Assembly: GCA_947466585.1 (NCBI GenBank)
Contig: CANIEU010000002.1
Location: 1 to 64,000 of the forward strand
DNA: 64,000 nt
DNA from: Fibrobacterota bacterium
GTDB taxonomy: Bacteria; Fibrobacterota; Fibrobacteria; UBA11236
Direction of reading: 5' to 3'
Of this stretch, positions 9,796-55,937 are shown piece by piece (positions within the stretch are counted from its first letter, which is position 1; every line of letters begins with the position of its first letter). The position numbers and the translations under genes are program-made. The notes beneath the pieces were generated by a model. It was not told the DNA's origin. It did no database searches and saw only the letters and a list, made by a program, of their open reading frames with translations.

Positions 9796-9868
9796 AATGA
9801 ACAATGATCAATGATCAATGAACAATGAACATCAAGAGCTGAGCATTGATCATTGTTCATTGATCATT
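9796..9868. repeat. heptanucleotide-period inverted repeat (AATGAAC/AATGATC)
   Basis: Five tandem 7-mers 9796-9830 and complementary arm 9844-9868; between convergent xerC and hisC. Confidence 0.8.
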
Positions 9869-11084
9869 ACGATAGGACGGATTTCAATTCTTTCAAAAAG
9901 AACGTGTTCTGTTCCTTCGTGCCGATCGTCACGCGACACCATTCCGGCAGCCCGAAACTCTTCAGCGCGCGAATGATCATACCGCGCTCCAGCAGGTCTT
10001 CGCAGAGGTCGATCGCCTGACAAGGCACCTTGAAGCAGATGAAATTGCCCTGCGTCGGCAAATAGGGGAGACCCAACTTTTTGAGTCCGGCTTCGATTTG
10101 CGCGCGCCCCTTCACGTTCACCGACAGCGACTTTTTCACGAAGGCTTTGTCGGTGAGCGCCGCTGAGGCGGCGGCTTGTACCACCAGGTTCACATTGAAG
10201 GGCGTCTTGACGCGCAGCGTTTCGCGCAGCAGACCCGAGTCGCCCATTCCGTAACCGAGGCGCAGTCCGGCGAGGCCGTACAGCTTGCTGAACGTGCGCG
10301 CCACCAGCAGGTTTGGGTAGGTGCGCATCAGCTCGACGCAGCGCGGATAGTCGGGTGCGGTCGCGTAATCGCCGTAGGCTTCGTCCACAACCAATAGGCA
10401 GGTGCGCGGGGTTTTCTTGAGCAGGGCGAGCAACTCGGCGTGCGTAAAATACGTGCCGGTCGGATTGTTGGGATTGCACAGAAACAGCATCTTCGGCTTC
10501 TGCGACAACGTTTTGGCGAAGCCCGCGAGGTCGTAGCGCAGGTCGCGCAGGGGAACCTTCACGATTTCGGCGCCCAGCACGCGTCCTGAGAACTCGTATT
10601 CGGAGAAGGTGTTCTCGGAGATCACCACCTTTTCACCGACCTTGACGAAGGCCAAGGCGATGTTGAGCAGGATTTCGTCGGAGCCATTTCCGACTACGAT
10701 GTTTTCGGTGGCGACTCCGCAGTGCGCGGCGATATCGCCCCGCAGCGCGCGGCTGGCGCCGTCGGGATACAATGAGGATTTCGCCAAGGCTTGAGTTGCT
10801 GCCTTGAGGGCCTTGGGACTGGTTCCGAGCGGGTTCTCGTTCGAACCCAGTTTGACGATGCGCTTCACCCCGTATTGTTCGCGCACTTCCTCGATGGAGC
10901 GCCCCGGAACATAGGGCTTGAGCGCCTGAATGGATGGGCGCGCGAGGGCGAGGATTTCGGCCTCGGTATAGGCGGAAACGCCCGAGGGAGGCAATACCGT
11001 GCGGGTTGCGGGGGTCTTGGCAACGGGCTTGTTCGGGGATTTCTTTGCGGACTTTTTCAAGGTCTTTGCGACGGGTTTTGGCAT
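9867..11084 (-). CDS. hisC: histidinol-phosphate aminotransferase with Lys/Pro-rich N-terminal extension
   Basis: KLGSNENPLGTSPKA, LCNPNNPTGTYF, VVDEAYGDY, ARTFSKLYGLAGLRLGY; N-term MPKPVAKTLKKSAKKSPNKPVAKTP. Confidence 0.9.
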   Translation of the reverse strand: MPKPVAKTLKKSAKKSPNKPVAKTPATRTVLPPSGVSAYTEAEILALARPSIQALKPYVPGRSIEEVREQYGVKRIVKLGSNENPLGTSPKALKAATQALAKSSLYPDGASRALRGDIAAHCGVATENIVVGNGSDEILLNIALAFVKVGEKVVISENTFSEYEFSGRVLGAEIVKVPLRDLRYDLAGFAKTLSQKPKMLFLCNPNNPTGTYFTHAELLALLKKTPRTCLLVVDEAYGDYATAPDYPRCVELMRTYPNLLVARTFSKLYGLAGLRLGYGMGDSGLLRETLRVKTPFNVNLVVQAAASAALTDKAFVKKSLSVNVKGRAQIEAGLKKLGLPYLPTQGNFICFKVPCQAIDLCEDLLERGMIIRALKSFGLPEWCRVTIGTKEQNTFFLKELKSVLS

Positions 11085-11205
11085 GGGTGAAAGATAGCGT
11101 ACGGCAGAGAGCTGACAACGAACGGACGCCACAGCCTCCCGGGCAGGGAGGGGCCCGCGCCGCACCTCGATCAAAATCCCCTTTATTCCTTGGGGTCCCA
11201 TTGTT

Positions 11206-11226
11206 ACGGGGCCTCCCCGTTTTTTA
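11206..11226 (+). terminator. terminator-like hairpin in the thrS leader (candidate attenuator)
   Basis: acgggg-cct-ccccgt followed by a T-run, about 48 nt upstream of the thrS GTG. Confidence 0.5.
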
Positions 11227-55200: not shown

Positions 55201-55777
55201 AGGGGTAGATGTCGAGGATTTCGCCGCGCACGCTGAAGTCGCCGATGTCTTGCACGGTGGCTTCTTCGCGGAAGCCCAGCGCCATCACGGCATCGCGGAA
55301 CGTTGCCGGGTTGAGCGCATCGCCGGCGCGCAATTCGACGATTTCGCGATGCAGGCTTTTGGGGCTCTGGAAGCGCTCCAGAAACGCCGAAGCCGTGGTG
55401 ACCACCACCACGGGCTTGGCGTTCTTCTGTCCACGATAGAGCGCCTCAAAAACCTCCAGCCGCTGCTCGCGGACCTGCCCGAAGGGTTCGCGCCATTCGT
55501 ACGGTTTGAGATCGAGGCCGGGAAAACGCAAAACCGCATCTTCGCCCAGCCAGGCGGAAAGATCTTCCGCCATGGTTTCGGCGTCCTTGGCATCGGGCGC
55601 GAGGTAGAGCAGCGGTGCGGCCGCTTTGCGGAACTGGGTTGCGACTAATGCCGAGGCCGCCGAACCCGCCAACCCGGCCACGTGCACGGGTTTTCCGGGA
55701 ACGGGAGTGATCGCCGCAAAATCGGCGAAGACACCCTGTTCGAGAAGATCGGAAAGCGGGAGGACGTGCGGGGACAT
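52268..55777 (-). CDS. mfd: transcription-repair coupling factor
   Basis: D2-CID and RecG-like helicase: [55 protein letters not shown]. Confidence 0.97.
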   Translation of the reverse strand: [1169 protein letters not shown]

Positions 55778-55787
55778 GGAGGGGAAA

Positions 55788-55937
55788 GGTAGGTAGTCGG
55801 TAGTCGGTAGTCGGTAGTCAACACAAGTGAGTCGTCATCCGAGAATCGTGGCGCGATTGGCCGATACGGTACGCGAGGCCCCACGCGCTAAATCCTTTTT
55901 ACTTCCGACTTCGAACTTCCGATTTCCGACTACTTCT
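55788..55937. repeat. heptanucleotide-period element with two different heptamer arms (GTCGGTA / ACTTCCG)
   Basis: gtcggta x3 at 55796-55816; acttccgacttcgaacttccgatttccgactacttctt at 55901-55937. Confidence 0.75.

Follow-up and report, generated by a model that had tools for sequence, protein, structure and literature searches.

We found that a 64,000-nt stretch (hereafter the window; G000:C2:1-64000) of a 2.24 Mb, 28-contig Fibrobacterota genome (G000) carries intergenic hairpins whose arms are built from tandem 7-nt units. These heptamer hairpins are probably copies, devoid of an open reading frame (ORF), of small insertion elements that encode the '23S rRNA intervening-sequence protein' (IVP; also called S23 or S23p; PF05635/TIGR02436), a four-helix bundle. 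A complete element would comprise one IVP gene between two inward-facing arrays of 7-nt units (8-9 nt in some lineages), and the ORF-less form would retain these arms around a short and unrelated loop. As no PF05635 match lies within the window, whose elements are all ORF-less, it is their derivation from IVP elements that we claim and not full membership. The associated protein had gone unseen in the initial annotation of this DNA, which described the hairpins alone.

Inward-facing heptamer arms flank IVP genes

In G000, two arms of a GTAG heptamer family lying 458 nt apart enclose an ORF that matches PF05635/TIGR02436. Our PF05635 search, which covered 41 genomes, returned four hits in this genome (C1:90742, C2:98167, C4:146502 and C17:45449). 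When PF05635 loci and similar-sized control genes were scored for inward period-7 arms (score of at least 12), such arms were found around 33 of 40 Fibrobacterota IVP genes and 1 of 150 controls (Fisher test, 6e-29). G001, G002 and G003 belong to the same genus as G000; within this genus, four IVP genes each are present in G000 and G003, both of which have hairpins, and none in G001 and G002, neither of which does. The period-7 hairpins of G003 use other heptamers, and some are also present in genus g2; none were found in 200 kb of G001, 100 kb of G002 or 200 kb of Fibrobacteraceae DNA. Even though these Fibrobacteraceae samples lack ORF-less hairpins, nearly all IVP genes of that family are armed.

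The heptamer unit tracks the sequence of the IVP protein. Across 34 loci, protein distance and heptamer similarity were correlated (Mantel rho -0.32, p=2e-4), with a mean unit similarity of 0.77 at less than 30% protein distance and 0.22 for the most distant proteins; reversed units scored ~0.18 throughout. Units are also common to IVP genes and ORF-less hairpins of the same genome, namely GTAGACG and the GAAATATGA..ATCAGAAA type in G000, GGGACGG and GTTGTTG in G003, and GGCGTCG in G006. The ORF-less copies of G000 and G003 use the local IVP unit of each genome, although the match is partial. The IVP loci with GTAGACG arms in G000 and GGGACGG arms in G003 align in their left flanks (77%), and the unit at this one site therefore seems to have changed.

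This arrangement extends beyond Fibrobacterota, to three phyla in all. A 50-aa IVP query matched 18 plasmid records, nearly all cyanobacterial, and at the same threshold inward period-7 arms were found at 11 of the 17 cyanobacterial plasmid IVP genes examined, with units such as TAGGGAG (Nostoc edaphicum), AGTCAGG (Nostoc) and TAGGGTG (Calothrix). Four plasmid IVP genes (loci L315, L321, L322 and L323; L-numbers denote individual loci) are interposed in the normally adjoining pairs nrdB-nrdA, cas6-cas4 and cas10-cmr3. A figure legend in PMC10910872 gives '23S rRNA IVP' as CRISPR-linked, possibly because IVP genes sit between cas genes. The 3.6 Mb genome of an acidobacterium (G041; Holophagales UBA2201, locus L164) had 14 PF05635 matches, with arms of up to ~100 nt; 5 of 13 loci passed the period-7 threshold, and by eye inverted arms made of tandem 7-, 8- or 9-nt units are present at ~11 of the 13. 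One 61-aa query against phage records found no IVP relative.

Period-7 hairpins and heptamer families in G000

We sampled 464 kb of G000, consisting of the window, which was chosen independently of hits, and 20 stretches of 20 kb, some of which sat on contigs with earlier hits, so that hairpin density in this sample is overestimated. Period 7 was strongly enriched between genes, with 33 lag-7 runs of length 10 or more where shuffled sequence gave 0.2; other lags gave 0-4 runs, lags 14 and 21 being elevated as harmonics of period 7. The sample contained 44 intergenic hairpins, 27 of them with period-7 arms, and Markov sequences used as controls contained none. Arms measured 15-34 nt and loops 21-157 nt. 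Both the enrichment of period 7 over other periods and an arm complementarity beyond that of controls, as put forward in the initial annotation, are borne out by these counts.

The suggestion that the heptamer is new at each locus did not hold, as families are shared among loci: GTAGACG/GTAGTCG is present at 13-14 sampled loci and AATGAGA at 6-7, CAGCGAA and others recur as well, and the pattern GGTAGWMGGTAG matched 190 times across G000 with no match to its reverse. Array order and unit number differ within one heptamer family. The companion proposal, that architecture rather than sequence is conserved, is correct between species, as at the pheS-pheT junction described below, where each occupied gap carries a different heptamer. 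All 14 GTAG-family pairs begin with the purine-rich arm (14:0). The idea that arms covary within a locus was rejected for this family, since in 14 unbiased pairs own-locus arms were no more complementary than arms drawn from other loci (permutation p=0.69); complementarity here stems from both arms belonging to one inward-facing family and does not reflect covariation at individual loci. A GAACRC/GYGTTC motif at the inner arm edge was likewise discarded as a general part, because few IVP elements have it (2 of 34, compared with 15 of 38 ORF-less elements). Along with the heptamer families, G000 contains hairpins with CACAACAA-like arms and a unit of ~8 nt (L052 18173-18250, L046 15527-15634 and L055 7558-7663).

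Hairpins occupy convergent, divergent and co-directional gene borders with no significant preference (chi-square p=0.19), in agreement with the earlier view that simple terminators are insufficient to account for them. Intrinsic terminators, which are short GC hairpins followed by a T-run at gene ends only, were rejected given the arm and loop lengths above and the occupancy of divergent borders. The arms lie a few to tens of nucleotides from start and stop codons. In a separate observation, a TATCTTTC-like motif is found shortly upstream of many start codons in the intergenic DNA of both G000 and genus g2, with TTTCCCCC also present in G000, suggesting promoters very near start codons and leaders that are short or absent.

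Discrete insertion and reuse of sites among relatives

Orthologous junctions show discrete insertion and the reuse of sites by differing element types. The pheS-pheT gap contains a heptamer hairpin in six of nine family species and measures about 12-20 nt in the other three, and the six units are all different (AATGAGA, GGGACGG, GGCGTCG, GCAAATT/GAAAATT, GGGGTTA and AAGGTTT). Downstream of pheT the gap is 133 nt in G000, against hairpin-free gaps of 10 nt in G003 and 36 nt in G002. Similarly, the L058 junction is 195 nt compared with 47 and 31 nt in relatives, and a junction of 199 nt in G004 is 1 nt in G000. The insertions are discrete at the pheS-pheT and pheT-downstream gaps and, for complete elements, at lysS-lolE.

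The lysS-lolE gap is 3-6 nt in six Fibrobacteraceae genomes and 407-504 nt in ten others, where it holds an IVP element. These elements are of at least four types (AGTAGGA, AGTGGTT, AGACGAG and AGGTATGAGGTCG), and in G029 a 100-nt gap instead holds an ORF-less AATTATG hairpin. The flanks are up to 93-95% identical, with the alignment reaching the arm edges. At L272 and L294 a remnant of an AGACGAG-type arm adjoins an arm of another type, which suggests that one type was replaced by another. A second reused site (L273, L298 and L277) holds three IVP/heptamer types.

Hairpin loci of the window

Tandem Repeats Finder and an inverted-repeat search recovered the arrays listed in the initial annotation, and seven of its eight loci stood at least partly when each was compared with 300 dinucleotide shuffles. 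The AATGAGA hairpin (15793-15908; arms 15793-15823 and 15878-15908) lies between pheS (14749-15789, + strand; TIGR00468) and pheT (15932-18361, + strand; TIGR00472; start estimated from the family match), and the inverted repeat at 15786-15915 exceeded all 300 shuffles. The closest named relatives of this PheS come from Fibrobacteria/Fibrobacteres metagenome-assembled genomes. Immediately downstream of pheT, a CAGCGAA/CAGCTTA hairpin (18364-18456) also outscored 300 of 300 shuffles (18362-18462); we found no IVP gene sharing the CAGCGAA unit. Inverted repeats beyond every shuffle were likewise obtained for an imperfectly armed GTCGGAA hairpin at 28228-28330 (tested at 28205-28340) and for a GTAGACG-family hairpin at 37272-37449 (arms 37272-37292 and 37429-37449; tested at 37262-37456), whose family also supplies the arms around an IVP gene of G000 (C1:90742, locus L287).

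The unit of that IVP gene is also largely shared by a GTAG-family element at 55792-55936, between mfd (52268-55777, - strand) and msrAB (55930-57123, - strand). Its left arm consists of four GTCGGTA units (55792-55819) and its right arm (55901-55936) of a GTCGGAA variant. The region 55783-55942 has a very long period-7 run (reached by 0 of 300 shuffles) and weak arm pairing (7 of 300), the latter because the arms are two variants. A 41-nt dispersed repeat, GTGGCGCGATTGGCC..GGCCCCACGCGC, occupies 55848-55888 inside the loop of this element; it is also found at L002, L004, L006 and L007, lying within two heptamer-element loops and elsewhere without heptamers.

An AATGAAC/AATGATC hairpin (9796-9868) sits at the convergent border of a xerC-like gene (8900-9790, + strand) and hisC (9867-11201, - strand), and its inverted repeat (9790-9875) was better than 300 of 300 shuffles. 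We found no heptamer hairpin in the orthologous gaps of G001 and G003. The gap measures 76 nt here compared with 85 and 113 nt in relatives; this hairpin is no simple insertion, and the gap lengths do not describe a discrete one. At 26192-26263, short GCGAAAT arms enclose a palindrome (26211-26244) resembling repetitive extragenic palindromes (REPs). The region 26185-26270 topped all 300 shuffles, a score owed to the inner palindrome, as the heptamer arms are short. This palindrome, TTGTAGGGGC..GCCCCTACAA, represents a separate REP-like family found also at L012 and L106 (4914-4977), and in G001, a genome without heptamer hairpins. The eighth locus, an AGCTGAC/AGCGGAC hairpin claimed at 29098-29205 upstream of trpB, was not significant, as 28 of 300 shuffles reached its inverted repeat and 16 of 300 its period-7 run (29090-29212); it is possibly a decayed copy.

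The window hairpins have very stable predicted folds. A scan of the window for known RNA families returned one tRNA and nothing else. A 102-bp tandem repeat of 2.1 copies lies within a predicted coding region at 24469-24685.

Relationship to known repeats and intervening sequences

The closest parallel is the intervening sequence (IVS) of 23S rRNA. In Coxiella burnetii the 23S IVS carries GACAGAT heptamers beside an S23p ORF, and RNase III cuts IVS stems (PMC4990558). The same paper calls IVS function and origin unclear, and quotes an older idea of Ralph and McClelland in which IVSs are mobile elements whose ORF aids mobility (PMC4990558). The likeness includes a PF05635 ORF in a block bounded by inverted repeats of ~25-30 nt, a scattered distribution with mobility proposed but unproven, and inverted arms that pair, which are found both in the window hairpins and around IVP genes. 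In contrast to the 23S IVS, the Fibrobacterota sites are between protein genes, with neither rRNA nor known RNA families found in the flanks of nine IVP loci, ORF-less copies are many, and the units vary and track the protein. Our data support the mobile-element idea of Ralph and McClelland outside rRNA.

Heptamer repeats have been described without such a protein. In Xanthomonas, ~70 convergent pairs of GGGAATC arrays form inverted repeats, 83% of the heptamer sites are kept between Xcc and Xac, and Nostoc also has heptameric repeats; in its treatment of these repeats, the source states that no detailed literature on them exists (PMC4692102). The intergenic arrays, convergent in Xanthomonas, resemble those reported here, but that account describes one unit per genome, draws no link to S23 and records no site turnover. 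Intergenic heptamer arrays, likewise abundant and with unexplained origins, are known for TAACTGA in Beggiatoaceae, where nearly all sets are direct and one is inverted (PMC4679880), and for GGGACCG in Geobacter metallireducens (PMC2700814).

The initial annotation had guessed at a link to the short tandemly repeated repetitive (STRR) heptanucleotides of heterocystous cyanobacteria, which are usually described as direct arrays. Like STRRs, the G000 repeats are tandem 7-nt intergenic units at many loci. The guess gains support from the IVP genes of Nostoc and Calothrix plasmids, the replicons to which this comparison was confined, as they lie between STRR-like heptamer arms. Within the open-access literature, subscription papers being outside our scope, the remark on Coxiella was the only connection between S23/IVP and heptamer arrays that we found.

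A model for IVP elements and its difficulties

We propose that IVP recognises its cognate tandem units, in either DNA or RNA, and that this recognition may drive or aid copying, in cis for the element itself and in trans for its ORF-less copies. IVP matches the X. campestris S23p structure 2GSC (E=2.5e-24), a protein that forms a homopentamer (PMC4990558), and each subunit could contact one unit of an array. As in the 23S IVS, the arms might pair in RNA and be cut by RNase III, which would reduce the harm done by elements lying inside operons.

Several observations weigh against this account. Simple copying is challenged chiefly by the uniqueness of the loops: five window loops had no second full copy in G000, with one 26-nt partial match, contrary to what simple copy-and-paste of a whole element predicts. 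One hypothetical way round this difficulty would be that loops decay fast while slippage and exchange renew the arms. We did not establish target-site duplication at element sites, and saw no recent transposition between near-identical strains. To our knowledge, no motif of a nuclease or recombinase is known in IVP. The fit between hairpins and proteins is also imperfect, as one of the four IVP genes of G000 (L301) is unarmed, an IVP arm of their own genome is the better match for only 14 of 28 ORF-less hairpins in G000 and for 2 of 6 in G003, and AATGAGA at 15793, with no counterpart among the IVP arms of its own genome, is matched better by a foreign one (L290). G004 has hairpins, and the PF05635 search found no IVP gene there. 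Finally, the genomes compared are mostly metagenome-assembled, a weakness of the comparison.

The alternative with the most in its favour, though we consider it unlikely, is regulatory, with IVP a nucleic-acid-binding autoregulator acting through its arms and the ORF-less hairpins serving as regulon sites in leaders and trailers. A binding protein and its target would be expected to covary, as unit and protein do here, and the arms lie near start and stop codons and, in G000, just upstream of the TATCTTTC-like start-proximal motif. This position at gene edges is, however, explained by selection against insertion in genes, the neighbours are housekeeping genes of many kinds among which we saw no common theme, and at a given gene pair close relatives carry either arms or a gap of 3-36 nt, with sites holding unrelated types. 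The same patchiness among close relatives, including species of the genus entirely without hairpins, makes it very improbable that selection maintains them as functional RNA hairpins, whether RNase III sites or transcription insulators at gene borders. Their very stable folds, their presence at all border types and the fact that IVS stems are RNase III substrates (PMC4990558) would suit such a role, which nevertheless leaves period 7, the unit families and the IVP link unexplained.

Passive origins are already strongly disfavoured, and we regard it as highly improbable that the arrays are heptamer microsatellites grown by slippage, with the second arm made by template switching and IVP genes present by chance. 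Simple repeats of bacteria do include an excess of heptamers (PMC4692102), and arrays of one family differ in order and number, but chance does not account for arms at 33 of 40 IVP genes against 1 of 150 controls, found even in Fibrobacteraceae where ORF-less hairpins were absent from the sample, nor for a strictly inward order, a single unit at tens of loci in one genome and a unit that tracks the protein. Least credible of all is mobilisation as REPs or REPINs by a REP-associated tyrosine transposase (RAYT, a Y1 transposase), or as retroelements by reverse transcriptase. Like REP/REPIN elements, ours are small, multi-copy intergenic hairpins whose partner protein is encoded at another locus, arms that contain GTAG recall GTAG-tagged REPs, and IVP is remotely related to Avd, a protein of diversity-generating retroelements. 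Y1_Tnp was nonetheless unmatched in G000-G008, leaving G000 with no RAYT match, and RVT_1 was unmatched in G000-G007; moreover, each arm is a tandem array where a REP would be a single palindrome bearing a conserved tag, and no loop is common to several copies. A diversity-generating retroelement was discarded on the lack of RVT_1 in G000 and an IVP score of 39 bits against the Avd cut-off of 80, and miniature inverted-repeat transposable elements because the interior is not shared, the five window loops having no other full copy.

Implications

More tentatively, and with somewhat less than even confidence, we suggest that IVP elements form a widespread class of mobile elements of minimal make-up, in which a single four-helix-bundle protein recognises its own tandem 7-9 nt unit without a transposase or reverse transcriptase, unit and protein co-evolve, and ORF-less copies follow in trans. 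The 23S IVS would be one branch of this class, with STRR and the Xanthomonas GGGAATC repeats as its footprints. Such a class would join two puzzles that have stood for decades, the origin of bacterial heptamer repeats and the role of S23/IVP. If it is real, every IVP should bind its cognate unit, and swapping units should break the match. It would explain why repeats differ between genomes, why arms face inward and why IVP genes occur inside operons, as complete elements do in lysS-lolE and the cas and nrd pairs and an ORF-less one does in pheS-pheT, and it would allow new unit-protein pairs to be found from sequence alone.

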